From: a bacterium
Lineage (GTDB): Bacteria; Patescibacteriota; Patescibacteriia; 2-12-FULL-60-25
Length of the DNA: 64,000 nt
NCBI GenBank assembly: GCA_021796435.1
Contig: JAJYXM010000016.1
Coordinates: 564,625 to 628,624 of the forward strand
Reading direction: 5' to 3'
Part shown: one piece after another, positions 10,767 to 34,512 of the stretch
Layout of the letters: each line of letters opens with the position of its first letter
Position numbering within the stretch: position 1 is the first letter of the stretch
Program-made: the position numbers and the translations under genes
The notes under the pieces: generated by a model
Seen by the model: only the letters and a program-made list of their open reading frames with translations
Databases searched by the model: none
Told to the model about the DNA's origin: nothing

Positions 10767-11177
10767 ATGCATCTGATCATACAGACAGACGGAGGAGCGC
10801 GCGGGAATCCCGGACCCGCAGGGATCGGTGTGGCGATATTCGACGAACAGGGGAAACTATTGGAAGAGATAGCGAAATATTTGGGGCGAACGACCAATAA
10901 TCAGGCCGAATATCAAGCCGTCATCACCGGCTTGGCACGGGCTTTGGAGCTGGGCGCGACTTCCGTAGAGGTCGTGGCAGACAGCGAGCTTTTGGTGAAA
11001 CAGGCTAATGGGGAATATAAAGTCAAGAATCCGGAAATCGGGAAAAGATATCTGGAGATGAAGAATCTGGAGACCCGATTGGGCGGAAAGGTGAAATATA
11101 GACACGTGACACGGGATAAGAACAAGATCGCCGATGCGTTATCGAACCGAGCGATGGACCAAGGGATGGGGAGATAG
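10767..11177 (+). CDS. rnhA: Ribonuclease HI
   Basis: 136 residues, a complete RNase H fold. The catalytic acids are visible: D8 (QTDGGARGNPG), E48 (TNNQAEYQA), D72 (VVADSELL) and a C-terminal Asp in KIADALSNRAMD. The basic handle region of E. coli RNase HI is absent, as in the archaeal/YpdQ-like type. It removes RNA from RNA:DNA hybrids. It is 39 nt downstream of recJ, probably in the same transcript. Its stop codon overlaps the left arm of hairpin A6. Confidence 0.92.
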   Translation: MHLIIQTDGGARGNPGPAGIGVAIFDEQGKLLEEIAKYLGRTTNNQAEYQAVITGLARALELGATSVEVVADSELLVKQANGEYKVKNPEIGKRYLEMKNLETRLGGKVKYRHVTRDKNKIADALSNRAMDQGMGR

Positions 11178-11278
11178 ACAGTATCGGGTGTCTTTTTTGG
11201 TCTGCGGAACTCGCTCGTATGGTTGTATTCGGCTCGCTCAGACAGTCCTCGCCTCAAAAAAGACACCCGATACTGTCT
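11176..11278 (+). repeat. Hairpin element A6 (family A, long-core type)
   Basis: Perfect 24-bp arms at 11176-11199 and 11255-11278 enclose a 50-nt core at 11202-11251. The core is CTGCGGAACTCGCTCG, 14 variable nt, GCTCGCTCAGACAGTCCTCG. The first bases of the left arm overlap the rnhA stop codon. The core differs from A1 only in the 14-nt centre and one base, while the arms share nothing with A1. Confidence 0.85.
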
Positions 11279-11392: not shown

Positions 11393-11523
11393 TACCTCAT
11401 CCTCACACCCTGAGGAAAAGGAAAAGACAGGCTATGTGAAGGTTTTTTTATTTTGTCCGGAGCTTAGCGGGTGGCTGTTGATATATTGCGGCTCATTTTG
11501 ATGTAGGACTAGATATTTTGTGG

Positions 11524-11529
11524 TACAAT
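11524..11529 (+). promoter_or_regulatory. -10 hexamer TACAAT of a probable leaderless promoter
   Basis: TACAAT ends 8 nt before GTG 11538, the likely start of the surface protein. No ribosome binding site can fit between them. Confidence 0.5.
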
Positions 11530-11537
11530 GGGGGCGT

Positions 11538-13490
11538 GTGAAAAAACGCCATCCTTTACATAAGAAGGTCGTGAAATTTTTGAATAAGAAACGCCATCGT
11601 CCGTCTTGGCTGTGGCGTTGGCATTATCTCGTTTCCGGCCTTGTAGTCTTTGGCGGTATCGGCATGTTGCTGGGGTTCTTGCAGTTCAGCGATACCCGCT
11701 CTTATACGGCGCAAGCCGCGGCCACTGATAACGTCATGGGCTGGCTCTGGTCTGACCACATAGGTTGGATTTCCTTGAACGACCTGAATCCGCAGACGTG
11801 TCCCGGGTCATGTGGCACTTATGGCGTTAAAATCAATCCTTCGACGCGTGAGATCACGGGATTCGGTTGGTCCGATAAATCCGGATGGGTGTGTTTCGGA
11901 TCTTCTTGCGCTTTGCCGGCAGAGTGCACCGGGACGCCGCCTCAAGGTGGTTTGAACGCCGTAATAAACGCAGGCACCGGGGCCGTGGAGGTACGTGGTT
12001 GGGCAAAAGTATGTAGCGAAGGCGATAACGGATGGATCTCCCTGAACTGTGCAGATTTTACTGGCGCGTGTACTGCTTTTCCGTATAAAGTCGTCTACAA
12101 TACGACCACGAAGTGGTTCCAGCCGAGTAATCCGGCAAAACATCCGACATCCTTTTCCAATCCAGCAGAGTATTCTTTGGCCTGGAACGGGTATTCCGGC
12201 GGAAACGGCTTCGGTTACATAGATTTCGAATATGCCAACAGCGTCATTGTCGAGACGGTGTGCAACGACGGCATAGATAACGATCTGAATGGAGTAGCTG
12301 ATTGTGCAGATTCTGCCTGCAAAGCAAGTCCTTCGTGTAACGAGGCGCCGGGCAATACCGATGCATGGGGTCAGCCGTTATGCATGGATGGTTTGGATGA
12401 TAACGGAAATGGGGCAGTGGACTGTGCGGATCCCGCATGTAAAAGCGCATCGCAGTGTCAGGAGATTCCGACCAACACGGATTTTTACGGCAACGCCTTA
12501 TGTGTCGATGGCATAGATGATGATGGTGATGGTGCGATAGATTGCGTCGATATAGGATGTACGGGTTATGCATCATGTACTTTGATCGGTGAAGCGGCTT
12601 GTGGTGCAGGAGCCGACGCTTGTTGTTCGGATGGTGTGGATAATGACGGCATCTTGGGCCAAGATTGCAGCGATCCGAACTGTTCCGTGGCGCCGATCTG
12701 TCTGCCGGCTTGGCTGCAGGCTAAGTTCGGGAATGTCTATGCCCAGCAAGGCATCACCGGAAATGCAGGAAAGGAATCAGAAGCGACTTATTGTCTGACA
12801 TCGCAGGGTTCGATCACCGGTTTCACGAGCGGTTCCGGCTGTTCTGAAACGGGTGCCGTGACGTTGTCCTTACCGAAAGGTTCGACACAGTACAGGGGTA
12901 CTTTAGGCAGTATCGACATCAACGGAATCATCAACGGTCGTTACGGTACGGTCCAGAATTTGGCGGCAGGCGATATAACCGCGCAATTGCCGAATGTATT
13001 GGCGGGTAAGGTGTATCGGGTAGTCGGCAATGCGACGCTGAACACCAAAACCTTCCTGAACGGTTCCACACCGACTGAACGAGGAAATGGCTTATTGATA
13101 GTCGAGGGAGATTTGACGATAACCGGGAACGTGGATTATACGGCCTCGACCAATATCCAGTCGCTGCGTAATCTCGCGTCCTTCGGCATCATCGTGAAGA
13201 AGAACGGTCTGGTAGGCGGCAACATCACGATCAATTCAGGGGTCGCCACTGTCGCCGCAGCCATATTCGCCGAAGATACTATACATACCGCACAGCCGGG
13301 CGATCCCGGCACTACGCCGCTTCTGGTGAAGGGTCTTTTGGCGGCTTATAAGATCGATTTGGCGAGGAACTACAAAGATGCGACGACGGCGGCAGAGACG
13401 GTCGTCTTCGATGGCCGCGCCGTCGCCAATCCGCCGCCTGGCATGTCGGACGTGGCTAAATCATTACCCACCTCGAAAGACGCTTTTTAG
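11538..13490 (+). CDS. Large pilus-locus surface protein with GW motifs and CNDGIDND repeats
   Basis: About 650 residues. A basic N-terminus precedes one membrane anchor (residues about 30-52). Next come GW-type repeats (NVMGWLWSDHIGWISLN, GFGWSDKSGWVCF, VRGWAKVCSEGDNGWISLN). Four copies of a Cys/Asp module (CNDGIDNDLNGVADCADSAC and variants) sit at about 240-385; their Asp-rich loops resemble thrombospondin type 3 calcium sites. The C-terminal 250 residues are beta-rich with LAAGDI, VVGNATL and LIVEGDLTITGNV. The gene sits 4 nt before pilM and is probably an exported adhesin or pilus-associated protein. An in-frame GTG at 11520 is possible, but GTG 11538 fits the -10. Confidence 0.7.
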   Translation: MKKRHPLHKKVVKFLNKKRHRPSWLWRWHYLVSGLVVFGGIGMLLGFLQFSDTRSYTAQAAATDNVMGWLWSDHIGWISLNDLNPQTCPGSCGTYGVKINPSTREITGFGWSDKSGWVCFGSSCALPAECTGTPPQGGLNAVINAGTGAVEVRGWAKVCSEGDNGWISLNCADFTGACTAFPYKVVYNTTTKWFQPSNPAKHPTSFSNPAEYSLAWNGYSGGNGFGYIDFEYANSVIVETVCNDGIDNDLNGVADCADSACKASPSCNEAPGNTDAWGQPLCMDGLDDNGNGAVDCADPACKSASQCQEIPTNTDFYGNALCVDGIDDDGDGAIDCVDIGCTGYASCTLIGEAACGAGADACCSDGVDNDGILGQDCSDPNCSVAPICLPAWLQAKFGNVYAQQGITGNAGKESEATYCLTSQGSITGFTSGSGCSETGAVTLSLPKGSTQYRGTLGSIDINGIINGRYGTVQNLAAGDITAQLPNVLAGKVYRVVGNATLNTKTFLNGSTPTERGNGLLIVEGDLTITGNVDYTASTNIQSLRNLASFGIIVKKNGLVGGNITINSGVATVAAAIFAEDTIHTAQPGDPGTTPLLVKGLLAAYKIDLARNYKDATTAAETVVFDGRAVANPPPGMSDVAKSLPTSKDAF

Positions 13491-13494
13491 AAAT

Positions 13495-14565
13495 ATGGGA
13501 TTATTCTCACACGAGCCAGCACATAAAAGTTATATCGGATTGGATATCGGCCAGTCGGGGATAAAATTGGTCGAATTGAAGAACGAGAAGGGTCGTGCCA
13601 GATTGGTGACTTATGCCTTCGCTAAGCTGCCGGTGGAATCTTATGAGAAAGCGATGAACGAGGAGATGGATAAGACGGCGGAATTCCTCAAGAAGATGCT
13701 CACCAAAGCCAAGTGCACGACCAAGCTGGCGGTGGCGGCCTTACCTATCTCATCCGTATTTTCCTCCATAATCAGCGTACCGTCATCGAACGAAAAGGAA
13801 CTGAACGAGACGATACAGATGCAGGCCAAAAAACTGATTCCCGTGCCTTTGGATGAGATTTCCTTGGATCACAAGATAGTCGATACCGGTTCGAGCGGCG
13901 ATAGCGGTAAAAAGATGACGAAGGTCTTGTTGACGGGCGCGCCTAAATCGCTCGTCCAGAAATACATGACGCTTTCGAAGAAGGCGGGCCTAGAACTCAT
14001 CTCATTGGAGACCGAAGCGTTCGCGCAAATCAGGGCCCTCATCGGTAAAGACCGTTCCAGCATCATGGTCATCGATATCGGATCGGTGCGTACGAACATC
14101 GCGGTCATCGAGAAAGGCATTCCTTTCCTCAATCGTTCTATAGCCACTGGCGGCGTGGCCATAACGCAGACCATCTCCAAGACGTTGGGCGTACCGTATG
14201 AGCAGGCAGAGAACATGAAACGTGACATCCGTGCCATGCAGACCTTCGCGCAGACCGGGGATATCTCGCCGATACTTTCCACGCTCCTCAAGCCGATCCT
14301 GGATGAGATCAAATATTCGTTCAACCTGTATCAAGGGCAAATGGAGGAAGGCCAGCAGAAACGCATAGACAAGATCATCCTGACAGGAGGCTCGGCTTTG
14401 TTGCCGAGTCTGCCGGAGTTCATCACGCAACTCATGAACGTCAACGCTTATTTAGGGGATCCTTGGGCCAGGGTGGTATATCCGCAGGATTTGCGTCCGA
14501 TTTTGGATGAGATAGGCCCGCGTTTCAGCGTCAGTATAGGCTGTGCCATGAGGGATATCGAATAA
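13495..14565 (+). CDS. pilM: Type IV pilus assembly protein PilM
   Basis: 356 residues from ATG 13495, 4 nt after the previous stop. It has an actin/FtsA-like ATPase fold: YIGLDIGQSGIKLVEL (phosphate 1), MVIDIGSVRTNIAVIEKG (phosphate 2) and ILTGGSALLPSLPEFI (adenosine motif). PilM is cytoplasmic and binds the N-terminal tail of PilN, linking the inner membrane platform to the PilB/PilC motor. The frame is open upstream to 13378, but that part overlaps the previous gene and is not conserved. Confidence 0.93.
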   Translation: MGLFSHEPAHKSYIGLDIGQSGIKLVELKNEKGRARLVTYAFAKLPVESYEKAMNEEMDKTAEFLKKMLTKAKCTTKLAVAALPISSVFSSIISVPSSNEKELNETIQMQAKKLIPVPLDEISLDHKIVDTGSSGDSGKKMTKVLLTGAPKSLVQKYMTLSKKAGLELISLETEAFAQIRALIGKDRSSIMVIDIGSVRTNIAVIEKGIPFLNRSIATGGVAITQTISKTLGVPYEQAENMKRDIRAMQTFAQTGDISPILSTLLKPILDEIKYSFNLYQGQMEEGQQKRIDKIILTGGSALLPSLPEFITQLMNVNAYLGDPWARVVYPQDLRPILDEIGPRFSVSIGCAMRDIE

Positions 14566-14580
14566 ACGAAAAACACATAC

Positions 14581-15681
14581 ATGCCGGACGAGATTTCGTT
14601 GCTCCCAGAGGAGCTGCGGAAAAAAGAAGAGGCCATCAAGGAAGAACATCCCGCTCAAAGCGAGCCTAATTCTGATTTGAAGTTCAATTTCCCTTCGGAA
14701 GAAGAAGAGGATGTTGAGATAATAGAGGTCGATGAGGGTGAATTGGATCAGGTGCTGCAAGGTGAGCCGACGCTCACTAAGGCGGCTTATTATCTGACGG
14801 CTTTCGTCGATGACATAAAGAACAAGCTTTTCGGACCCAAGCCTGAGGTCGCTCCGGCCAAGATGCCGCCGCAGTTCTTCAAAGCACCTCCGACTAAAGC
14901 TCCTGCAGCGCCAGGGAAGCCGCAGATGCCGGGATTGCCGACGGCTGCCGTAGAGCCTGCGAAACCGGGCGCGCCGGCAACCGTCACAGCCAAACCGATG
15001 GCTCAGATGCCTGGCGTGCCAAAGGCTAAGGCGCAGATCACGCCCTTCGCCAAGACTCCTCGACGTGTCAGGGTCATAAGACGGGTGCGCCGACCGGTTA
15101 AGGTCAGCTTCGTCTCCGAAGAATCGTTACGGCTCAAAGTCGATATCCCACGACGGCGGTTCACGCTGATCACGATGACGGTCACGTTCCTTCTTCTGTT
15201 GGGTGGCTCTTACGGGCTCTTGGATTACCAGCTCAACCAAAGCAGGATGAACGACAGCCAGGCCAAGAAGCAGCTGGAGGACGTAAGGACGGAGATACAG
15301 AATCAATTGCAGGCGTGGTCATCCTTCCAGCTGCTTGAACCCAAACTCAAGACTCTGTCGTTATTGTTGGATCAGCATCTGAGCCCGACTACGCTTCTGG
15401 AGGATCTGGAGAAGAATACGCTACCGACCGTGTATTACACTAACTTCGAACTTTCGCCGGACCACAGGATTTCCTTGAACATAAAAGCAGATAGCTTGGA
15501 TTCCGCGGCGCGGCAATTGGCGGCATATCAGCAAGCGCCGTTCGTCCAGAAAGTCGAGGCCAACAGCTACACCGTGGAATATGACACGGATAATCCGGAC
15601 AAGGTGAAGGACGTCACGTTCAGTATTTGGCTGACTTTGAGCGATGACGCTTTGATAAAGCAGCTGGCTAAGACCGAATGA
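14581..15681 (+). CDS. pilN: PilN-like pilus assembly protein with a long cytoplasmic N-terminal region
   Basis: 366 residues, about twice the length of a typical PilN. The N-terminal motif DEISLLPEELRKKEE resembles the PilM-binding INLLP tail. An acidic stretch and a Pro/Ala-rich linker (residues about 95-160) and a basic patch follow. The membrane helix is at about 195-215, then a periplasmic-type coiled coil and a ferredoxin-like domain. Position between pilM and pilO supports the call. The stop overlaps pilO by ATGA. The long linker may let the PilM site reach further from the membrane. Confidence 0.8.
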   Translation: MPDEISLLPEELRKKEEAIKEEHPAQSEPNSDLKFNFPSEEEEDVEIIEVDEGELDQVLQGEPTLTKAAYYLTAFVDDIKNKLFGPKPEVAPAKMPPQFFKAPPTKAPAAPGKPQMPGLPTAAVEPAKPGAPATVTAKPMAQMPGVPKAKAQITPFAKTPRRVRVIRRVRRPVKVSFVSEESLRLKVDIPRRRFTLITMTVTFLLLLGGSYGLLDYQLNQSRMNDSQAKKQLEDVRTEIQNQLQAWSSFQLLEPKLKTLSLLLDQHLSPTTLLEDLEKNTLPTVYYTNFELSPDHRISLNIKADSLDSAARQLAAYQQAPFVQKVEANSYTVEYDTDNPDKVKDVTFSIWLTLSDDALIKQLAKTE

Positions 15682-16343
15682 TGAAGCATATGCCGGATTT
15701 GACCAACAAAAACGGGAATAATGAAGCGCCGATTAACGGCGAGAAGAAACCGTCGAAATTGTTCACGGAGTATTATGCTTCGGTATTCCTTTTGGTCATC
15801 GCAGGATTCGTCGCAGTCGGGGTATTGGTCCATCGTCCGCTCATCCAAGCGTTGAAAGAGTCTAATGCGGATACGGAAGCGACGCTGAACACCATAACCA
15901 CGGAATCGAACTATCTTAAAGGGCTTAAGGGATCGGTTTCAGCCGCACAGTCGATATCTCCGGACGTATTGAGCGAGATAGACCAGGCCCTGCCGCCGAG
16001 CCAGAACATCCCTTCGTTGCTGTCGCAGCTCGGTTCAGCCGCAGACAGGAACGGGGTCAAGATAGACAGTCTGACCTTCAATGAACAGCAGGTATTGCAG
16101 CCGCAGAGCGCGACCGAGACGTTGCGCCTCATCCCGATGGATGTTCAGTTATCGATACAGACCAAGACTTATTTCGACCTGAAGAGGTTCTTGTCCGATC
16201 TGGAGAACAGCCTGCGTCTGATGGACGTCGTCGGGATAAGTAGCTCCGAAGCGACGGCTGGCAAGACGACGTATCTGCTTCAGCTGCGTGTGTACTCGAT
16301 GGTCGAGGCGGCACCGAGCGCGATACCAACACCAACGCCATGA
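15678..16343 (+). CDS. pilO: PilO-like pilus assembly protein
   Basis: 221 residues, with a cytoplasmic N-terminus, a membrane segment at about 33-52 (VFLLVIAGFVAVGVLVH), a coiled coil and a ferredoxin-like C-terminal domain (LRLIPMDVQLSIQTKTYFDLKRFLSDLENSLRLMDVVGI), typical of PilO. PilN and PilO form the alignment complex on the outer face of the membrane. It overlaps pilN by 4 nt and the next gene by 4 nt, so translation is coupled. ATG 15690 is an alternative start. Confidence 0.82.
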   Translation: MMKHMPDLTNKNGNNEAPINGEKKPSKLFTEYYASVFLLVIAGFVAVGVLVHRPLIQALKESNADTEATLNTITTESNYLKGLKGSVSAAQSISPDVLSEIDQALPPSQNIPSLLSQLGSAADRNGVKIDSLTFNEQQVLQPQSATETLRLIPMDVQLSIQTKTYFDLKRFLSDLENSLRLMDVVGISSSEATAGKTTYLLQLRVYSMVEAAPSAIPTPTP

Positions 16344-16732
16344 AGAAAACTTCGATTGTTTCGCGTTTGATCATGGTGCTTATGGCACTGGGCATCTTGG
16401 GTTTGGCCTATTGGTTCATCAGCACGAGCCTGACACCGGTCGAAGTCCCGCGACAGCTCGTGTTGCGGAGCGTGGTCAAATTCGATCCGAAGTTGGACAT
16501 CTCGACGAACGAAAAATTCTTGGCTTTGCGTCCGTTGGGGGCATTCGACCTGCAGCTACCTGCCATGGGGCGCGAAAACCCTTTTTTCCCTCCAGTCGTG
16601 ATACATCTAACGACTTCGACTAGTGCCACTGCCACCGGGATGCTGCAGGAAACGAGCGTAACCAGCACGGCGACAACGACAGCTGCAGTTTCGGCTGAAA
16701 CAGTCGACGTCACGACAACCACCCAACCTTGA
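16340..16732 (+). CDS. Small anchored protein in the PilP position
   Basis: 130 residues: one N-terminal membrane helix (residues 8-27), a short soluble region with LPAMGRENPFFPP, and a Ser/Thr-rich tail. The GRENPF motif and the position after pilO recall PilP or other inner-membrane accessory proteins, but there is no HR/beta domain to prove it. The start overlaps the pilO stop (ATGA). The low-complexity tail suggests an exposed extracellular linker. Assignment is by context. Confidence 0.55.
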   Translation: MKKTSIVSRLIMVLMALGILGLAYWFISTSLTPVEVPRQLVLRSVVKFDPKLDISTNEKFLALRPLGAFDLQLPAMGRENPFFPPVVIHLTTSTSATATGMLQETSVTSTATTTAAVSAETVDVTTTTQP

Positions 16733-16733
16733 T

Positions 16734-18473
16734 ATGGATGAGAAGATATTGGACATACTCTTGAAGCAACAGCTGGTCGACCAGAAGGCTCTTGGTATCG
16801 CCAAAGATCTGATGGCGCGCGGTAAGACGCTGGAGCAGGCTTTGGTCGGAGGAAGATATGTCAAAGAGATGGATTTTGCCAAAGCTAAGGCCGAAGCCTT
16901 GGCTTTACCTTTCGTGGATCTGACGGAAAGGGTCATACCGAAGGAGACGCTCGAATTGATACCACAGGATACGAAAGAGACTTATGGTGCGGTACCGACG
17001 GCATTCGACGGTAAAGTACTGGAGGTCGCCTTGTTGAACCCACAAGATCTGCGGGCGAGCGAAGCTTTGGAATTCATGGCTGCGGACAAGGGTTGGTCGA
17101 TCAAGTACGTCGTAGCACCGAGTTCACAGATCACCAGTCTTTTACGTAAGCTTCGTGGTTTGGGCGTAGAAGTCGCTACAGCACTGGCCCAAGCCAAGGG
17201 CAAGTTCGAGAAGAAGGAAGAGAAGACAGAAGAGGTCGGAAGGCTGGAAGAGATAATCAAGGGCGCACCGGTATCACGCATGGTCTCGGTCATCATGCGG
17301 CATGCCGTTGAGGGAGGAGCATCGGACATACACATAGAACCTTTGGGCAATGAATCTCGCGTAAGGTATCGCATCGACGGTGTCTTGCGCACGACGCTCG
17401 TCTTGCCGATATATGTGCATCCGGCGTTAGTCTCACGCATCAAAGTCTTGGCAAACCTCAAGTTGGACGAGACGCGCGTACCCCAGGATGGGCGCATCAC
17501 ACAAGAGATAAGCGGAAGGAATATCGATTTCCGCGTTTCGATCCTGCCCGTCGTGGATAACGAAAAAGTCGTGATGCGTATCCTCGACACCTCGGCGACC
17601 GCGCCGACGCTCGAGAATCTGGGTTACCGTAAAGAGCATGTAGCCATAATCGATGCCGAGATACATAGGCCGTTCGGCATGGTGCTCGTCACGGGCCCGA
17701 CCGGTTCGGGTAAATCCACGACTTTGTTCGCTGCGCTTACTTCGTTGAACAGCGAAGGCGTGAACATCTCTACGCTGGAAGATCCGGTTGAGTATTACAT
17801 CAAAGGCGTCAACCAGTCGCAGATAAAGCCTGAGGTCGGATATACGTTCGCTGCAGGTCTGCGCGCCTTATTGCGCCAGGACCCGAACGTCATTATGGTC
17901 GGTGAAATCCGCGATAGGGAAACCGCCGAATTGGCGATTCACGCATCGTTGACAGGCCATCTTGTCTTTTCGACATTGCATACGAATGACGTCTTCGGCA
18001 TCGTGCCGCGTCTGGTGGATATGGGGGTCGAGCCGTTCCTTTTGGCCGCTACGTTGAATATCGGTATCGCCCAGCGTTTGGCCAGGAAGATCTGCCAAGC
18101 CTGCAAAGAACCGCAGGAGCTGGAGCAGAAGACTTTGGATATCCTCAGGAAGGATGTGCTGACTATCCCGAAAAGATATCTTGATGCGGATTTCGATCCG
18201 GCAAAACCGTTGGTTTTCTATCATGGTAAGGGCTGCGCCAGATGCGGGAATACGGGATATCAGGGTCGTATCGCGATAGACGAGATGATCCAGTTCACTG
18301 ACCACATGAAGCGGATCGTGGAGAAGGGTTTTCCCATCGCCGAGGTAAGGGCGGAAATAGCGAAACAGGATTCGATAACCATGCGGCAAGATGCGATACT
18401 CAAGGCTCTAGCGGGTTCAACTACGGTCGAAGAAGTGCTAAGGTTGAGTCAGGAGGCACAAGAGGATCTTTGA
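16734..18473 (+). CDS. pilB: Type IV pilus extension ATPase PilB
   Basis: 579 residues. The N-terminal MshEN-like domain covers about residues 1-150. The ATPase domain has the Asp box (TLEDPVEYYIKGVNQ), Walker A GPTGSGKST, Walker B VGEIRDRETAE and His box (GHLVFSTLHTND). Near the C-terminus CQAC and CARC form the zinc-binding tetracysteine typical of PilB/GspE and absent from PilT. It powers pilin insertion from the cytoplasmic side. No PilT retraction ATPase lies in this locus. Confidence 0.95.
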   Translation: MDEKILDILLKQQLVDQKALGIAKDLMARGKTLEQALVGGRYVKEMDFAKAKAEALALPFVDLTERVIPKETLELIPQDTKETYGAVPTAFDGKVLEVALLNPQDLRASEALEFMAADKGWSIKYVVAPSSQITSLLRKLRGLGVEVATALAQAKGKFEKKEEKTEEVGRLEEIIKGAPVSRMVSVIMRHAVEGGASDIHIEPLGNESRVRYRIDGVLRTTLVLPIYVHPALVSRIKVLANLKLDETRVPQDGRITQEISGRNIDFRVSILPVVDNEKVVMRILDTSATAPTLENLGYRKEHVAIIDAEIHRPFGMVLVTGPTGSGKSTTLFAALTSLNSEGVNISTLEDPVEYYIKGVNQSQIKPEVGYTFAAGLRALLRQDPNVIMVGEIRDRETAELAIHASLTGHLVFSTLHTNDVFGIVPRLVDMGVEPFLLAATLNIGIAQRLARKICQACKEPQELEQKTLDILRKDVLTIPKRYLDADFDPAKPLVFYHGKGCARCGNTGYQGRIAIDEMIQFTDHMKRIVEKGFPIAEVRAEIAKQDSITMRQDAILKALAGSTTVEEVLRLSQEAQEDL

Positions 18474-18510: not shown

Positions 18511-18879
18511 ATGCAGAAAGTATTGATAATAGAAGATGATGGTTTCTTGGCCAGCATCTATGCACAGAAGCTGGAACTTTCCGGTTATGAAGTGGCCTTC
18601 GCGACGAACGGCGAAGACGGCCTTAAGCTGGCCCAAAAGGATAAACCCGATCTGGTGCTGTTGGATCTGTTGATGCCCAAGATGGACGGGTTCGAGGTTT
18701 TGGAGAAGATCAAGGGAGATGCCGCGACGAAAGACATCAAGATCCTGGTCTTATCTAATTTAGGGCAGAAGGAAGACGTAGAGAGATGCCTCAAGTTAGG
18801 CGCGGAAGGTTATGTGATCAAAGCCCATTCATTGCCCGACGAGACGGTAAAACGGATACAGGAGATCTTGGGTAAATAA
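18511..18879 (+). CDS. Single-domain response regulator (receiver)
   Basis: 122 residues, receiver only. The acidic pocket is E8-D9-D10, the phosphoacceptor is D52 (LVLLDLLMP), with S82 and K104 in place of the usual Thr/Ser and Lys. There is no output domain, so it should act through a protein partner. It sits between pilB and pilC, which suggests control of the motor, comparable to CheY-like PilG/PilH in other systems. No histidine kinase gene is in the window. Confidence 0.9.
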   Translation: MQKVLIIEDDGFLASIYAQKLELSGYEVAFATNGEDGLKLAQKDKPDLVLLDLLMPKMDGFEVLEKIKGDAATKDIKILVLSNLGQKEDVERCLKLGAEGYVIKAHSLPDETVKRIQEILGK

Positions 18880-18887
18880 GCTTAACG

Positions 18888-20099
18888 ATGCCTACTTTCA
18901 AGTATCGAGCACGGATGCCGGATGGGAAAATCCAGGCTGGTTTGATTGAGGCGGACGACACGTCAGCGGCACAACAGGCGTTGGAGGAAAGAGGGCTGGA
19001 GATGATGCTCGTCGAGCCTTATACCACCGTCGAGGCCGCGTCGAAGCAGGTGCTGTATTTTTTGAATCGGATCAAGCCGAAGGACTTGGTCATAGCCACC
19101 CGTACGCTTTCGGTCATGGTATCCGCAGCCGTGCCTTTGCCCGAAGCCGTCAGGAACATCGCACGCCAGTCGGAAAATCCGTTGATGCAGCGCGTGCTGA
19201 TAGACATAGCGGGGGAGATCGAAGGCGGCGCGAGGCTTTCGGATGCGTTTGCCCATCATTCCGATGTTTTTTCCGAGTTTTTCATCAACATGATCAGATC
19301 CGGAGAGACTTCCGGCCAGTTGAGTGAGGTGCTGGAATATCTCGCCGACCAACAGGAAAAGGACTTCGACCTGACGAGCAAGATAAAGGGCGCGATGATC
19401 TATCCGGCGTTCATCCTGACTGCGATGTTCATAGTGGGTTTCATTATGATGACTTTCGTGGTGCCGAAACTCACGAGCGTCCTGACGGAAGCCAATGTGA
19501 GCTTGCCTTGGACGACGTTGACCCTGATCGCCGTTTCAGGTTTTTTCCAGAGATTCTGGTATGTCATCATTATCGTCATGGTCGGTTTGGGCATCGGAGG
19601 ACGGTATTACGTCAAGACTCCGTTAGGCAGATATAGATGGGATTGGCTGAAGATAAATTTGCCTATTTTCGGGAATCTTTACCGTGAGATGTATGTCGTC
19701 CGGTTCACGCGGTCATTGGCCACGCTACTGAAAGGCGGCGTCGATCTGGTGGAAGCGCTCGAGATCGTATCCGGCGTCGTCGGGAACGAGGTATGGAGGA
19801 ATGTGGTCTTCGAGACGATCAAAGAGGTGAATGACGGAAACTCGATAACCACAGCTTTTTCGCGATATAAATTCGTGCCGACCATGTTGACGCAGATGCT
19901 TTCGGTCGGTGAGGGGACGGGAAAGACCCAAGACATCCTGAATCGCGTCAGCCATTTTTATGCACGTGAGATAGACAACATGGTGAGCAACCTGACCAAA
20001 CTGATAGAACCTTTGGTTTTGGTCATTTTGGGCCTGGGCGTAGGTGTGTTGGTCTCTGCTATATTGTTGCCATTGTACAGCTTGTCGAGCGCGATTTAG
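18888..20099 (+). CDS. pilC: Type IV pilus inner membrane platform protein PilC
   Basis: 403 residues with two GspF/PilC domains. It has the usual N-terminal start (MPTFKYRARMPDGKIQAGLIEA), SGETSGQLSEVLEYLADQ in the first repeat and VGEGTGKTQDILNRVSHFYARE in the second, and three main hydrophobic segments (about 170-190, 215-235, 370-395). PilC couples PilB ATP hydrolysis to pilin insertion. It starts 8 nt after the receiver gene. Confidence 0.95.
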   Translation: MPTFKYRARMPDGKIQAGLIEADDTSAAQQALEERGLEMMLVEPYTTVEAASKQVLYFLNRIKPKDLVIATRTLSVMVSAAVPLPEAVRNIARQSENPLMQRVLIDIAGEIEGGARLSDAFAHHSDVFSEFFINMIRSGETSGQLSEVLEYLADQQEKDFDLTSKIKGAMIYPAFILTAMFIVGFIMMTFVVPKLTSVLTEANVSLPWTTLTLIAVSGFFQRFWYVIIIVMVGLGIGGRYYVKTPLGRYRWDWLKINLPIFGNLYREMYVVRFTRSLATLLKGGVDLVEALEIVSGVVGNEVWRNVVFETIKEVNDGNSITTAFSRYKFVPTMLTQMLSVGEGTGKTQDILNRVSHFYAREIDNMVSNLTKLIEPLVLVILGLGVGVLVSAILLPLYSLSSAI

Positions 20100-20147: not shown

Positions 20148-20202
20148 TCGCTCATTAATATTCTTTAATCATTGACCTTTCAGGTCACCCAAAGTGCAAA
20201 AT

Positions 20203-20685
20203 ATGCATAATAAAAAAGGTTTTACGCTCATCGAGCTCTTGGTCGTCATCGCGATCATAGGTTTGTTGGCGACGCTGGCTGTCGTAGCTTTCGGCAGTGC
20301 ACGCGATAAGGCTAAAGATGCCAAGAGAATCTCTAACGTAAACAGCGTTATAGCGGCGTACAGTGCGGCAGCGAATGATGGTATGGCTTTTGATGCCACA
20401 ACCTGTGCAGTCGGCAAACGTATTTCGGAGTGTAAGATTTGTACTACCACAGCCTGTACCAGCGATAAGACGTCTACATACATCAACCTGACGCAGTTCG
20501 TAGATCCTGATAGCACAACAGCCTGCGGAGCAGCACCGGCTGCTGCTTGTACTCCGGCTTTCATCACCGCTGCGCCCTCGCTCGGAGACAACCCGTCATT
20601 CACGATCAGTTTCTGGACGGCGCAAGCCAGCGGAAACTTGAATGCTGGCGCTCACACAGCGAACGCCTTGGGCATAGTCAACTAA
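20203..20685 (+). CDS. pilA: Major type IV pilin (PilA-like)
   Basis: 160 residues. A short basic leader ends in the prepilin site [19 protein letters not shown]: cleavage after Gly, methylated Phe+1, Glu+5, and the N-terminal hydrophobic helix. The head is Ala/Thr-rich with four to six cysteines that could form disulfides. It has its own strong promoter and its own terminator (20703-20732), as expected for an abundant pilin. GTG 20194 would add three residues; I chose ATG 20203. Confidence 0.92.
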
Positions 20686-20702
20686 TTCAATCCGAATACA
20701 TC

Positions 20703-20732
20703 GCCACCTCGGTACCAACCGAGGTGGTTTTG
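20703..20732 (+). terminator. Rho-independent terminator after pilA
   Basis: CCACCTCGGT pairs with ACCGAGGTGG around a 4-nt loop and is followed by TTTTGTTTT. Confidence 0.9.
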
Positions 20733-20774
20733 TTTTCAAGGCTATGTTTATGGGTTATAATCAAAGCTAATGAT

Positions 20775-21245
20775 ATGTTGATAACGCCTTCCAAACGTGC
20801 AGGATTCACCATCCTTGAGTTGCTTGTGGTCATCGTCTTCGTCGGGATACTAGCGGCGGTCGCGATTTATTCCTTGAACGTGACTCGAGCCATGAGTCGC
20901 GATTCTAAACGCGTATCCGACATCAGTGTCATCCGCGCTGCATTAAGCCAGCATTGGTTGCAGAAAGCTGCCTATCCAGTGAGCGATGGCGTGGATTTGG
21001 GCGCACCTGGCGCTAATGCAGATGTCTTGGCCGGCAATGGTTTCGTGGCCAGCGATCAAGCTGTTGACCCGCTTTTCCTGCAAAGCATACCGACTGGGCC
21101 AAAAGCGGGTGAGTATTACTTCTATAAAGGTTCTGCCTCCGGATATTCGATCAGGTTCACCACGGAACGTGTGACAGCGTATGGACCAGCCGGAACTTAC
21201 TTTGCGCATGCTAGTGGGGTAGATACTTCTGATGAACTCAAGTGA
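20775..21245 (+). CDS. Second type IV pilin-like protein
   Basis: 156 residues from ATG 20775. The prepilin motif is KRAGFTILELLVVIVFVGIL (Gly-1, Phe+1, Glu+5). The head contains RAALSQHWLQKAAYPVSDG and a C-terminal YYFYKGSASGYSIRFTTE stretch, like the GspG/minor pilin fold with a short calcium-loop-like end. A TATAAT hexamer at 20756-20761 gives it a separate short-leader promoter. The frame is open upstream to 20547 but that part overlaps pilA. Its stop lies just before hairpin element B1. Confidence 0.85.
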   Translation: MLITPSKRAGFTILELLVVIVFVGILAAVAIYSLNVTRAMSRDSKRVSDISVIRAALSQHWLQKAAYPVSDGVDLGAPGANADVLAGNGFVASDQAVDPLFLQSIPTGPKAGEYYFYKGSASGYSIRFTTERVTAYGPAGTYFAHASGVDTSDELK

Positions 21246-21248
21246 GAT

Positions 21249-21368
21249 GGATTCCCGATTTTTGCGCATAACTTTGTCAAAGCCTCCGCTACTCGCTTTG
21301 CGTACCTCTATGTACGCGGCGCTCCGTTGCTCGGCTTTTTCGCGTTCTGCATCAAAAATCGGGAATCC
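21249..21368 (+). repeat. Hairpin element B1 (family B, 120 bp)
   Basis: Perfect 16-bp arms at 21249-21264 and 21353-21368 enclose 88 nt. The insert begins CGCATAACTTTGTC and ends TTCGCGTTCTGCAT. It contains an inner stem AAAGCC/GGCTTT and a central stem GCGTAC/GTACGC. It begins 4 nt after the stop of the second pilin gene. The same layout recurs at 47929-48047 and 56435-56554. Confidence 0.8.
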
Positions 21369-21393
21369 TCATGCCATCATTTCCTAGAAAGAC

Positions 21394-22185
21394 ATGGACA
21401 TCCAACGCATACTATTGATCATCCTCGCCGCTGCTTTAGGCGGTGTTTTAGGCTCTTTCGCGAACGTGCTGGTCATCCGCTGGCACGAGGATAGTTCGAT
21501 CGGCGGAAGATCGGCTTGCCCGAGATGTAAGACTACGATAAAGCCGCGACATCTCATCCCCATATTCTCTTGGCTTTGGTTACGCGGGAAATGCGCATAT
21601 TGCGGTAAGAGCATTCACTATCAGTACCCGATCGTAGAGGCCTTGGTGGCGATTTTAGGCATAATCGCAGCGGTCAGGCATGATCCGTTGACGGATCCCA
21701 TGTTCTGGTTCGAATTTTTGTTTTCTATGACGTTGATTGTGCCGGTCGTCATGGATATCCGTTGGCAGGAAGTTCCGGTGGAATATCTCATCGGCGTAGC
21801 TGTCCTTTCCGGTCTTTGGCAGGTCATTTATCCTCCCTCATCAATGGAAGACATCTTGGCGCGGTTCTATTCGATTGCGTTGGCATTCTTGATTTCGGCT
21901 GTGTTCTTCGGTCTGCAGATCGTCGTATCGCGACAAAAGTGGTTGGGTTTAGGTGACTTATGGTTCGCTTTCGCCATGGCGGGCATTTTGGGCTGGCAGA
22001 AGCTCTTGGTCGGTATTTACATGGCATACGTCATAGGCGGCGTAGTGGCTTTCGTCGGGTTCGTCGCAGGGAAATTCAAACGCGGTTCGCGTCTGCCCTT
22101 TGTGCCGGCGCTCTTTGCAGGTACAATGGTGGCATTGTGGTATGGCGACCGTATAACCGCCTGGTTCCTGCATGCGATCAAATAA
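21394..22185 (+). CDS. pilD: Prepilin leader peptidase / N-methyltransferase (PilD)
   Basis: 263 residues, with about seven membrane segments. The N-terminal methyltransferase part has the zinc cysteines C42/C45 (CPRC) and C67/C70 (CAYC). The two aspartic protease residues are in VVMDIRWQEVP and GLGDLWF (consensus D...GxGD). It cleaves the Gly-Phe bond of the pilins encoded around it and methylates the new N-terminus. Its end overlaps the next pilin gene by 14 nt. Confidence 0.93.
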   Translation: MDIQRILLIILAAALGGVLGSFANVLVIRWHEDSSIGGRSACPRCKTTIKPRHLIPIFSWLWLRGKCAYCGKSIHYQYPIVEALVAILGIIAAVRHDPLTDPMFWFEFLFSMTLIVPVVMDIRWQEVPVEYLIGVAVLSGLWQVIYPPSSMEDILARFYSIALAFLISAVFFGLQIVVSRQKWLGLGDLWFAFAMAGILGWQKLLVGIYMAYVIGGVVAFVGFVAGKFKRGSRLPFVPALFAGTMVALWYGDRITAWFLHAIK

Positions 22186-22795
22186 AGCACAAGCATTCTC
22201 ATATACCGAATTCCTGATCAGTGTCGCGATTTTGGCGATCATTTCGATGATGTCGGTGTATTCCTTGAACAGCTCGAGGTCACAAGAGGAGCTGAAGACG
22301 GCGCAAAGGGTTGTCGCCGCTGATTTGCGTACGTTACAAGCGAAGGCACTGAATGCAGAGAACGTGAAATTCTGCACGAACAGTTCCGGAGCAAAGATAG
22401 TCTGCGAAACGAGCACTACGGGTTGTACGGATAGCTGCACGGCGGTACCGCCTGCGGGAGTCGGAGGGCACTTCGTGAGGAACGCAGCGACGTACGATTT
22501 TTATGCCAAGTACGATCCATCGACGACCGATTGGCGCAAATCAGCGGCGACTGAAGTTTTTTTGACCAGGAACTTGGCTAAATCAGGCGCGGCGAATGTA
22601 CAGATCTCGGGTTTCAGCGTGGGAGTAATAGCGGATATAGCCTTCGAAAGGCAGAACGGCGGGATGAAGATAAACGCCTGCCCCAGCGGATGCACTAATG
22701 ATTCCGTGTTGACCATAACCTTGAGGCATACAAAGACCGGAGCGACCAAGACGGTGACGCTATATACCTTGACCGGCAGGATAGTCATGGATTAA
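22172..22795 (+). CDS. Minor pilin with atypical prepilin motif
   Basis: 207 residues. The N-terminus is MRSNKAQAFSYTEFLISVAILAII: Ala-1 instead of Gly, Phe+1, and Glu retained at +5. A type III-like hydrophobic helix is followed by a Cys-containing head (four to six Cys) with GMKINACPSGCTNDSVLTITLRH, a GspH/FimT-like pattern. It overlaps pilD by 14 nt. Ala-1 may slow processing by PilD. Confidence 0.75.
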   Translation: MRSNKAQAFSYTEFLISVAILAIISMMSVYSLNSSRSQEELKTAQRVVAADLRTLQAKALNAENVKFCTNSSGAKIVCETSTTGCTDSCTAVPPAGVGGHFVRNAATYDFYAKYDPSTTDWRKSAATEVFLTRNLAKSGAANVQISGFSVGVIADIAFERQNGGMKINACPSGCTNDSVLTITLRHTKTGATKTVTLYTLTGRIVMD

Positions 22796-22800
22796 CCATC

Positions 22801-23388
22801 ATGCGCATAGCCAAGGCACAAACATTGATCGAATTGATCGCGGCGGTGGCGGTGATAGGCATAGGATTGTTCGCGGCGACGAGCATCGTATTCTCAAACA
22901 TGAATCTTTCGGACCGCGATTCGGACAGTGTGGTGTCGACCAATCTGATGCGCGAGGTCCTGGAGCTCGCCAAAAATAAGCGTGACAGCAATTGGCTGGC
23001 CGGTGTAGCCTTCGATACAGGAATGTACAGCGGGACGGATTATTCCGCGACGCCCATCTGGAACGGAATAGCTGGGACATATAGTTTTGATTTCGGACCT
23101 AACGATTTTTCCGACGTAAAGACCAAGATAATACGATCGGCGAACGCTTCGGCGCTCGACTTCCTCGAGAATTATCAACCTGGGTATACCGGAGCCACCA
23201 CGACTTTTTCCCGCATCGTGACCTTCAACGGGATTTGTGCCAATGGTTCGATAGTCGGTGCGGGCGTCAATTGCGGAAATGTCGGAAGCACCAAAATAGG
23301 CATACGCGTCATGGCGCAGATCAGGAATACCAGGAAGGGCGTCACCAAGGACAGCACGATGTATGAAGACCTTTATGACTGGCGTTAG
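22801..23388 (+). CDS. Minor pilin (PilV/GspI-like)
   Basis: 195 residues. The leader is KAQTLIELIAAVAVIGIGL: Ala or Gln at -1 and Thr+1 in place of Gly/Phe, with Glu retained. The helix is followed by SDSVVSTNLMREVLELAKNKRDSNWL, typical of PilV/GspI, then a large head with two Cys. It starts 5 nt after the previous gene and overlaps the next by 26 nt. It is probably part of the tip or priming complex. Confidence 0.72.
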   Translation: MRIAKAQTLIELIAAVAVIGIGLFAATSIVFSNMNLSDRDSDSVVSTNLMREVLELAKNKRDSNWLAGVAFDTGMYSGTDYSATPIWNGIAGTYSFDFGPNDFSDVKTKIIRSANASALDFLENYQPGYTGATTTFSRIVTFNGICANGSIVGAGVNCGNVGSTKIGIRVMAQIRNTRKGVTKDSTMYEDLYDWR

Positions 23389-23992
23389 AAGGGTTATTGC
23401 CGAAAAAGCAAGGTTGGGACGTAAATCTAAGGGTTTTACGCTGTTGGAGATGCTTCTGGCAGTGTTCATCTTTTCGATGGTCGCGGTCGTCTTGGTCCAG
23501 ATTTTCGTGTCTTTCACCCGGTTGCAGCGCAAGGTGGCAAATCAGGCCATCTTAAGCCAGGATATGCGGTATCTGACCGAGATGATGACGCGCGTCGCGC
23601 GGAGCAACTATATCGATTATAGCCTGCAGCCTTATGCGACGAAACTGAACTACATCAAACTGGTGAAGCCGACCGGAGGTACTATCCTGATCAGCAAACA
23701 GGACGGCGTACAATGCGGCGATCCGACGATCACGAGCTGCATCATGTTGAGCAAAGACGGCGGGTTGAGTTGGGAGATAGCGACGTCTAAACGTGTGAAT
23801 GTGCTTAATTTCGATGTCTACGTCCGGCCATCCAACACTCCATTCGTACCCAACTCGAGCGGCGCTTACGACAACAATAACCAGCCCTTCGTGACATTCA
23901 ATATCGGGCTCGAATATAAGGCGGACAACGCGAATGAGGGCGCTTCGATGCATGCTCAGTCGACAGTGTCTTCTCGGCTCTATCTAAGATGA
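23363..23992 (+). CDS. Minor pilin (PilW/GspJ-like)
   Basis: 209 residues. The prepilin motif KSKGFTLLEMLLAVFIFSM (Gly-1, Phe+1, Glu+5) follows a 24-residue basic leader. The helix is followed by RKVANQAILSQDMRYLTEMMTRVAR and a GspJ/PilW-like head. It overlaps the preceding gene by 26 nt, so it is translationally coupled. A later ATG at 23375 is possible. Confidence 0.8.
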   Translation: MKTFMTGVRRVIAEKARLGRKSKGFTLLEMLLAVFIFSMVAVVLVQIFVSFTRLQRKVANQAILSQDMRYLTEMMTRVARSNYIDYSLQPYATKLNYIKLVKPTGGTILISKQDGVQCGDPTITSCIMLSKDGGLSWEIATSKRVNVLNFDVYVRPSNTPFVPNSSGAYDNNNQPFVTFNIGLEYKADNANEGASMHAQSTVSSRLYLR

Positions 23993-23996
23993 TGGT

Positions 23997-24830
23997 ATGG
24001 ATCGGCACGTAACCAAGCACAAAGCGGAGATGAAGAAAGAAGCGGGGAATATCTTGCCGCTGGCCTTGGTCATGATTTTCCTCATCCTCCTGTCCGCTTT
24101 GGGTATAGGGGTCGTCGTCATGGAGGGCGCGCGGAGCGGTGTCGAGACGGACCAGAGCGTGTCGGCTTACTATATGGCTGATTCCGGGATAGAACGGCAG
24201 CTTTACGAGATACGCAAAAATAATCAGACGTTGACTTATGTGGATTCTTTAGGCGGGACATACATCAGCGGCGGCACGTGGAAATCAACTGGCGACTTGG
24301 AGCCCACGACCAGCAAACAGATCCAGATCGTCACCACCAGCAGTTTCGCTGTCCTAGACGTCTTCAACCCGGACGACCTTACGCATTCCTTAGGCATAGA
24401 CAATATGCACCTGACATGGCAGAAGGATCCGACATGTACGCAGCCCAACGCCAGGATGGAAGTCAGCTATGCTTATTGGGAGATCGTCGGCGGGATACCG
24501 CAATTCCCCAGCGACAACCAGTTTATCGTCTTACCGAAAAACATCACCTATAGCATGGATGTGCCATTGGATTCGCTGAAATTCTACCGTATCCGATTGC
24601 GGTCTTATGATTGCGCCGCAGTCAACGTAACGGCGGCTTTCAGCGGCGGAGGTGTGGCCAAGCCATATCCGGGCGACATCACGCTTTCGGCCGAAGGCAC
24701 GTACGGCAAGGCGACGCAAAAGATAGCGGCCACGATGCCTAAACTCGATATCCTTTCAGGCGTATTCAGTTATGTGATTTTTTCCGAATGTACGTTGGTC
24801 AAGGGCACGGGCAGCGTGACGTGTCCGTAG
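23997..24830 (+). CDS. PilX/GspK-like pilus tip protein
   Basis: 277 residues. The N-terminus KKEAGNILPLALVMIFLILLSALGIGVVVMEG is the PilX-type signal helix. YYMADSGIERQLYEIRKNNQ follows, the usual PilX alpha1 continuation. The head is beta-rich with three or four Cys. It starts 4 nt after the PilW-like gene. With the three previous proteins it makes a complete minor pilin set (FimT/PilV/PilW/PilX order). A terminator-like hairpin follows at 24863-24890. Confidence 0.75.
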   Translation: MDRHVTKHKAEMKKEAGNILPLALVMIFLILLSALGIGVVVMEGARSGVETDQSVSAYYMADSGIERQLYEIRKNNQTLTYVDSLGGTYISGGTWKSTGDLEPTTSKQIQIVTTSSFAVLDVFNPDDLTHSLGIDNMHLTWQKDPTCTQPNARMEVSYAYWEIVGGIPQFPSDNQFIVLPKNITYSMDVPLDSLKFYRIRLRSYDCAAVNVTAAFSGGGVAKPYPGDITLSAEGTYGKATQKIAATMPKLDILSGVFSYVIFSECTLVKGTGSVTCP

Positions 24831-32946: not shown

Positions 32947-33621
32947 ATGCAAGAAAAAGATATACAGAAATATTTCCTTTTAGGTACGATAGTGCTCGTC
33001 TTGTTGGCGGTGATCGGGATCGTCATCGCGATCGTGTCTGGGCCGACGACGGTCAACAAGCCTTTGGGCGAGAAAGTCAGCGGCTTATCGTTCACGGACG
33101 ACAACGACCCTTCATACGGACCAGGCGAGTCTAAATACATCGTCAGGATATTCAGCGACTTCCAGTGCCCTGCCTGTAAAGCGGCCGAAGCAGGTATCCG
33201 ATACGCCATGGACACTTATGGAGACAGGGTGCGTTTCGTGTGGAATGATTTTCCGTTGTCCACCCTGCATCAGAACGCGGAGATAGCCGCCGTGGCCGCC
33301 AGATGCGCGGAGGATCAGGGTAAGTTCTGGGATTACCACGACAAGCTGTATGATCTGCAAGCTCAATGGGAGTCAGTCGCGGCGCCGACGCCGCTATTCG
33401 TGGATTACGCGAAACTCCTGAAGTTGGATGACCAGAAGTTCGCGGCTTGCCTGAATGGACAGCAGTTTTTGCGAAAAGTGCAGGCGGATGTTGCTGAAGG
33501 GCAGAAGAACGGCGTTGAAGGTACACCGACTTTTTTCTTCGGTGGTGATACGAAAATCGTCGGTGGCATGGACAATGCCAGTTGGCAGCAGGCGATGGAC
33601 GCCTATCTTGCCGGGTCTTGA
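32947..33621 (+). CDS. Membrane-anchored DsbA/thioredoxin-like protein, CPAC
   Basis: 224 residues: an N-terminal membrane helix (10-31), then a DsbA-type thioredoxin fold with the active site FSDFQCPACKAAE (C74/C77). The helical insertion and the cis-Pro in GVEGTPTFFF follow. It faces the outside and probably oxidises or reduces disulfides in exported proteins such as the Cys-rich pilins and surface protein. It begins 8 nt after trxB, so the pair may form an electron route. No DsbB/VKOR gene is seen. Confidence 0.88.
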   Translation: MQEKDIQKYFLLGTIVLVLLAVIGIVIAIVSGPTTVNKPLGEKVSGLSFTDDNDPSYGPGESKYIVRIFSDFQCPACKAAEAGIRYAMDTYGDRVRFVWNDFPLSTLHQNAEIAAVAARCAEDQGKFWDYHDKLYDLQAQWESVAAPTPLFVDYAKLLKLDDQKFAACLNGQQFLRKVQADVAEGQKNGVEGTPTFFFGGDTKIVGGMDNASWQQAMDAYLAGS

Positions 33622-33693: not shown

Positions 33694-34512
33694 ATGAGCA
33701 TGTTAGAAGAAAACCCAACAATGCCGGAGACGAAGCCGAAAGAGGAACCGGTGCCTGTCGCCAACCTTTTGGACGGTCCGCCGAAGACGATGTTTTATAT
33801 GGGTCTTTTGGCCGGGATCGCCGTCAGCACGACTTTGATGCTGGTCTATTTCGTGTGGGCAGTCTCGACTGGCGGAGTGTTGCCGGGCGCCACTAAGGCT
33901 ACAGCGCAGGTCGCCGCACAAGATACGGGGGCAGCTGCACAACAGCCGACCACTGATCCGAGCGCTAATCCACAAGCGGCCGCAGGGCCGGTCAAGCCGG
34001 TGGACGAGAAGACTGACCACATGGTCGGACCGTCAGACGCTAAGGTCACGATAATCGAATATTCTGATTTCGAGTGTCCGTATTGCAAGCAGCATTACAA
34101 CACGATCAAGCAGATATTGAACGATTACAGCGGTAAGGTGCGTTTCGTTTATCGCTATTTCCCCTTGACCTCTATCCATCCACACGCCGAGAAGGCGGCG
34201 GAATCGGCGCAGTGCGCGACGGAATTGGGCGGAGAGAAGGCGTTCTGGGCGATATACGACAAGATGTTCACTGCAGATTCATTGTCGGATGATGGTTTCG
34301 TGCAGATGGCTGCCGATATAGGTCTGGATAAGATCAAGTTCAAGTCGTGCTTGGATTCCGGCAAGTATGCTTCGTTGGTCTCAAAGGATCAGACGGAGGG
34401 TGCTTCAGCCGGCGTGAACGGAACGCCAGCGACGTTCGTGAATGGTCAATTGGTCTCAGGCGCGCAGCCTTATGCCAATTTCAAGACCATGATAGACGCA
34501 GCGTTGCAATAG
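33694..34512 (+). CDS. Second membrane-anchored DsbA-like protein, CPYC
   Basis: 272 residues: a cytoplasmic N-terminus (1-34), a membrane helix (35-57), an Ala/Gln/Pro-rich linker (to about 105) and a DsbA thioredoxin domain with YSDFECPYCKQHY (C128/C131) and cis-Pro in GVNGTPATFV. Two isoforms with different central dipeptides (PA, PY) suggest different redox potentials. It ends with a strong terminator at 34531-34560. Confidence 0.9.
   Translation: MSMLEENPTMPETKPKEEPVPVANLLDGPPKTMFYMGLLAGIAVSTTLMLVYFVWAVSTGGVLPGATKATAQVAAQDTGAAAQQPTTDPSANPQAAAGPVKPVDEKTDHMVGPSDAKVTIIEYSDFECPYCKQHYNTIKQILNDYSGKVRFVYRYFPLTSIHPHAEKAAESAQCATELGGEKAFWAIYDKMFTADSLSDDGFVQMAADIGLDKIKFKSCLDSGKYASLVSKDQTEGASAGVNGTPATFVNGQLVSGAQPYANFKTMIDAALQ

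Follow-up and report, generated by a model that had tools for sequence, protein, structure and literature searches.

The locus raises the question of what a cysteine-rich, repeat-bearing protein of 650 residues does immediately ahead of the pilM genes of a type IV pilus (T4P) in a member of the CPR, which are tiny and probably host-dependent bacteria. The window analysed, a stretch of 64,000 nucleotides of contig JAJYXM010000016.1 (assembly GCA_021796435.1), carries the gene between rnhA (10767-11177) and pilM, with its stop codon 4 nt ahead of pilM, and the order that follows is pilM, pilN, pilO, an ORF of 130 aa, pilB, a receiver-domain protein, pilC, pilins, and the prepilin peptidase (Table 1). 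The confirmed reading frame, the immediate proximity of pilM, and an extended -10 box ahead of the start bear out the preliminary description of this DNA, which had placed a real gene at the head of the pilM operon. On balance, and by a narrow measure, its product is probably secreted and serves the Uhrbacteria-type T4P as an accessory protein, working like PilY1 or ComZ, with a solenoid seated on the pilus and the N-terminus turned outward.

Table 1. Coordinates of the gene, of the segments of its product, and of neighbouring features in the window
Feature	Position	Strand	Basis or remark
Putatively secreted T4P-linked protein gene, 650 aa	11538..13490	+	start GTG 11538; alternative start 11520
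Perfect 24-nt inverted repeat, 55-nt spacer, T-rich arms	11176..11278	.	between rnhA and the gene
Extended -10 box TGGTACAAT	11521..11529	+	8 nt ahead of GTG 11538
Residues 1-60: basic n-region, hydrophobic core ~30-50, SPase-I-type site A58-Q-A60	11538..11717	+	
GWxWS-motif domain, predicted beta-barrel, residues 61-238	11718..12251	+	
Acidic double-disulfide repeat 1, residues 239-267	12252..12338	+	NF033662, Cys spacing
Acidic double-disulfide repeat 2, residues 279-307	12372..12458	+	NF033662, Cys spacing
Acidic double-disulfide repeat 3, residues 319-347	12492..12578	+	NF033662, Cys spacing
Acidic double-disulfide repeat 4, residues 360-388	12615..12701	+	NF033662, Cys spacing
Predicted beta-solenoid domain, residues 389-650 (well-modelled ~452-641)	12702..13487	+	structure models
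C-terminal tail motif DGRAVANPPPGM	13410..13445	+	
pilM	13495..14565	+	PF11104
pilN-like	14581..15681	+	position and synteny; no Pfam match
pilO	15678..16343	+	PF04350
pilB	16734..18473	+	PF00437 and PF05157
pilC platform	18888..20099	+	PF00482
Pilins and minor pilins	20194..24830	+	includes prepilin peptidase 21394-22185
PilX-like minor pilin (weak)	23997-24830	+	
Two DsbA-like thiol oxidoreductases	32947-33621, 33694-34512	+	

GTG 11538 is preferred as the start codon over GTG 11520, since the latter overlaps the extended -10 box. This box (TGnTA(T/C)AnT) lies 6-10 nt upstream of the start in 13/13 close homologues, against a background of one in 54 starts of other genes at the same loci (with a spacing of 19) and of 0.33% of 30-nt windows, and its closeness to the start implies a leaderless transcript that would begin at the gene itself. 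In a wider and more diverged class set, a looser promoter expression applied to automatically picked starts recovered 10 cases out of 40; therefore, the box is a trait of the close family. A generic consensus promoter and terminator scan, with the two sigma-70 hexamers, returned no plus-strand site ahead of the gene and nothing else of use. The inverted repeat that separates the gene from rnhA is the sole copy in the genome and is probably a terminator or an insulator. Within the operon, the 130-aa protein encoded between pilO and pilB (16340-16732) has one hydrophobic stretch and no Pfam match, and its place is conserved in Uhrbacteria relatives; its position suggests a PilP-like role. Moreover, a stand-alone receiver (CheY-like) domain is encoded between pilB and pilC (18511-18879), in an order that is kept in those fetched Uhrbacteria-type loci that reach there.

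The only hydrophobic stretch of the protein is located at the N-terminus (about residues 30-50) and had initially been described as a single anchor. In an alignment of 15 homologues, position 60 is Ala in 15/15 and position 58 is A, V, or T in 15/15, amid variable neighbours, and AxA-type conservation after a hydrophobic core is typical of signal peptidase I sites. In a wider set of 40, a site of the permissive form [AVSTGI]xA follows the hydrophobic stretch in 32 of the 36 proteins having one, the remaining four being without a detected stretch. Owing to the conserved AxA site, the region looks like a cleavable signal peptide rather than a membrane anchor, and the anchor reading was dropped; the same putative export signal speaks against a cytoplasmic location. 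A Pfam search at E<=1 found no match to N_methyl (PF07963), PilX, or any other pilin profile, and the lack of a pilin helix with which to join the fibre is counted against a role as pilus accessory protein.

The mature protein is acidic (net charge -31) and starts with the GWxWS-motif domain, whose model (residues 61-238) resembles HphA, TbpB, and avidin-type barrels with Z scores of 5.5-6.8, within the range that the tool calls non-specific. Of the GW-type repeats reported earlier, the GWxWS motifs are indeed present, whereas the Listeria GW module (PF13457) is ruled out, as the Pfam search gave no match at E<=1. The four CNDGIDND modules of the preliminary description proved to be units of the acidic double-disulfide repeat NF033662 (score 92.7 bits, cut-off 41, over four stretches), with the spacing C-13-C-4-C-5-C identical in all four, a number reached by 0/5000 residue shuffles. 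NF033662 also matches 14 of 15 close homologues, and the exact Cys spacing occurs from 0 to 4 times in each of the 15. The protein is Cys-rich, as had been proposed, with 28 Cys that make up 4.3% of its residues versus 0-1.4% in nine other ORFs of the window. In each repeat, the Cys residues at 0, +14, +19, and +25 correspond to C838, C852, C857, and C863 of the C-rich domain of teneurin-4, and most calcium-ligand positions of that domain are present; as outlined in PMC9058538, the crystallized domain binds three Ca2+ and contains the disulfides C838-C857 and C852-C863. From this exact correspondence of motif and ligands, calcium binding and two disulfides per repeat are well-founded predictions, in support of the calcium-binding nature suggested at first sight. 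The two DsbA-like proteins that had been put forward as the source of the disulfides are present about 20 kb away, but no linkage to the gene is seen; they are possible disulfide donors for the repeats.

The large beta-rich end that had been noticed at first is predicted to be a beta-solenoid in two models (12 sequences each), one covering the mature protein (overall pLDDT 69) and the other the C-terminal domain alone; both are confident over about residues 452-641. Foldseek ranks ComZ of Thermus first for both models, and with the full model ComZ fills the top two places (E 0.09-0.13, probability 0.84-0.93), although with E values of 0.09-0.46 across both models, all above 0.001 and hence non-significant. 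A second structure comparison gave ComZ a Z of 10.5 over 191-192 residues at 3.9 A, with modest Foldseek E values and no sequence match beside it, and placed ice-binding solenoids at Z 9.8-11.7 and the next unrelated folds at Z <=7.9. Specifically, DUF3494 profiles match 0/16 C-terminal domains at E<=1, a PDB sequence search with a 49-row profile of the domain (built from 49 of 56 C-terminal domains) reached a best E of 0.076 and found neither ComZ nor ice-binding proteins, and the libraries searched, including Pfam and PHROGs, hold no family for the domain. Since sequence profiles miss the relation, what the C-domain has in common with ComZ and the ice-binding proteins is a shared predicted fold rather than demonstrated homology.

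The structural match introduces the main functional rival, namely that the protein is a DNA receptor at the pilus tip that serves natural transformation, the role put forward for ComZ, which is described as binding DNA (PMC6561018). This role, which we consider improbable, could draw on the ComZ rank and on the occurrence of comEC in 112 of 115 class genomes; however, the near-universal comEC is not tracked by the gene, which is found in 62/115. The C-domain is acidic to neutral (median net charge -5 in 49 members) and the N-terminal part is strongly acidic, which also argues against a DNA receptor, although charge is a weak argument, as the ComZ solenoid is likewise without a positive patch in the account excerpted from PMC6561018.

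The linkage to pilM that the preliminary description had relied on holds in the relatives. Among 38 relatives, 22 match the protein: 13 of 24 in the same family (itself included), six in other families beside pilM, and three through the repeat or GWxW modules only. Within the same family, pilM lies immediately downstream in 10 of the 12 relatives with the gene, the other two reaching contig ends; in relatives that include Candidatus Uhrbacteria, Parcubacteria, and Patescibacteria group records, pilM is next at 11 of 12 loci and the twelfth stops at a contig end. In a class sample of 115 genomes, the C-domain occurs in 62 and pilM in 111, and the domain is encoded directly upstream of pilM on the same strand in 57 of the 62 carriers; the five exceptions have it about 7 kb upstream (G046, G111), 1.8 kb upstream (G061), or on a contig other than that of pilM (G083, G108). 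Conversely, 49 of the 111 pilM-bearing class genomes have no match to the C-domain, so that the protein is not required for pili, and nine of 16 domain-negative pilM regions that were fetched keep a recJ-type gene (identified by eye) upstream with no such gene in between; the gene is thus an insertion, present in part of the genomes, into surroundings that are conserved.

Across the phylum sample, the C-domain was found in 67 of 239 genomes with a first profile and in 85 of 239 with a wider one. Outside the class, 22 of 80 carriers, from 13 families, encode it immediately ahead of pilM, and in 58 of 80 it is not adjacent; 66 of these 80 have a PilM match and 64 entered the adjacency test. In L064, L065, and L067, which belong to another class and are read as Saccharibacteria-like, the gene directly upstream of pilM encodes a large protein that contains the C-domain and bears the tail YDGRVVANTPPGFG. 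In one family (L056), the solenoid protein is a separate gene of 473 aa about 7 kb upstream of pilM; its neighbours encode a glycine-rich protein of 1370 aa, whose N-terminus is signal-like, and a protein resembling a signal peptidase (both by eye). An apparent frame of 25,343 residues ending in the C-domain in another CPR genome was discarded, being a masked stretch read as open.

This distribution bears on two further readings. The adjacency to pilM, and not to the pilins, in the 57 class carriers is in line with a part of the envelope machine, such as an extracellular cap, an exit guide, or a wall anchor for PilMNO in bacteria presumably devoid of PilP/PilQ, and so is the fixed C-terminal tail; we regard this as rather unlikely, given that the protein is absent where the recJ-type gene stays upstream of pilM and that its N-terminal part varies fourfold in length, which is odd for a scaffold. 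The protein could instead be a general secreted or cell-wall adhesin, co-expressed with the pilus and not part of it, as the putative export signal, the calcium-type repeats, and the 58 non-adjacent carriers outside the class would allow; the strong linkage within the class and the predicted ComZ-like solenoid speak against it, and we hold it unlikely.

The preferred reading of a pilus accessory protein is shaped by which parts of the family are constant. In 40 further class homologues outside the close family, which range from 508 to 2101 aa, the GWxW motif is found in 29, the acidic-repeat core in six, and the tail R..(N/S)(P/T/S/A)P in 37, at 14-23 residues from the C-terminus, the remaining three being near misses; R243 and N247 (domain numbering) are invariant across the 49-row alignment. 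Given that the acidic repeats are so sparse outside the close family while solenoid and tail are constant, the family is defined by the C-terminal beta-solenoid with its DGR..NPPPG tail and not by the calcium loops.

In the mechanism that we propose for the accessory protein, it would be made first, from a leaderless mRNA and together with PilMNO, and its signal peptide would be cut at the conserved AxA site. The beta-solenoid and the DGR..NPPPG tail would then dock on the pilus assembly complex or on the minor-pilin tip, as their conservation and the pilM linkage suggest, and the N-terminal barrel, together with the repeats stiffened by Ca2+ and disulfides, would project outward as the variable recognition part. 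Tip position and partner binding are both deduced in this scheme. Based on the position at the head of the operon and on the recurrence of the tail-end domain beside pilM across CPR, it is possible that the pilus makes contact with the host cell through this protein. The adhesin idea of the preliminary description survives its own test and is strengthened by the pilM linkage. A more specific proposal, possible yet somewhat doubtful, is that of a T4P tip protein of CPR's own, with a solenoid and fixed tail that plug into the machine and swappable N-terminal receptors. If it were true, the family would fill the role of PilY1 in CPR, setting which partner cell gets caught. A single conserved C-terminal domain, often beside pilM, makes it possible to list candidates for partner recognition throughout the phylum (85 of the 239 sampled genomes). 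If L064, L065, and L067 are Saccharibacteria, cultivated and genetically tractable strains would offer a way to test the idea.

Known systems resemble the protein in different parts. The family shares with the PilY1/PilC tip adhesin (PF05567) a putative secretion without a pilin helix, a constant C-terminus, a variable N-terminus, calcium motifs, and an encoding with T4P genes, PilY1 being outlined in PMC13190605 as a pilus-tip protein with a conserved C-terminus and a diversified N-terminus. In contrast, a beta-solenoid is predicted here in place of the beta-propeller of PilY1, and the linkage is to pilM instead of a minor-pilin cluster; PF05567 has no Pfam match in the protein at E<=1, and its detection in 0/115 class genomes is uninformative, as control genomes also lack a match. 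The C-rich domain of teneurin-4 (PDB 7plp) shares the Cys spacing and most ligand positions, but it contains six Cys and an additional, third Ca site, whereas each spacing unit here has four Cys and no D at +18. An open-access literature search found no description of the solenoid/tail family. Within CPR, PilX1 and PilX2 of Nanosynbacter lyticus TM7x are, by their description, T4P proteins with large beta domains and no predicted PilD site, proposed to prime or adhere (PilX2 as an adhesin), but they are pilins with a jelly roll and an RCC1 propeller, and CPR pilins are stated to be too diverged for sequence comparison (PMC12206443). A study of one Saccharibacterium describes most of its T4P genes, but not comEC, as essential on the host (PMC10633639). 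Lastly, ComZ of Thermus thermophilus (PDB 6qvi) is a T4P protein whose beta-solenoid, irregular, three-sided, and of the ice-binding type, would be shared by the predicted C-domain. The solenoid of ComZ is presented as closest to an ice-binding protein and as an insertion in the pilin domain, and the role of a tip pilin is argued for ComZ (PMC6561018). The protein described here, in contrast, has no detected pilin domain and a likely signal peptide, and it carries the acidic repeats and the GWxW barrel in addition.
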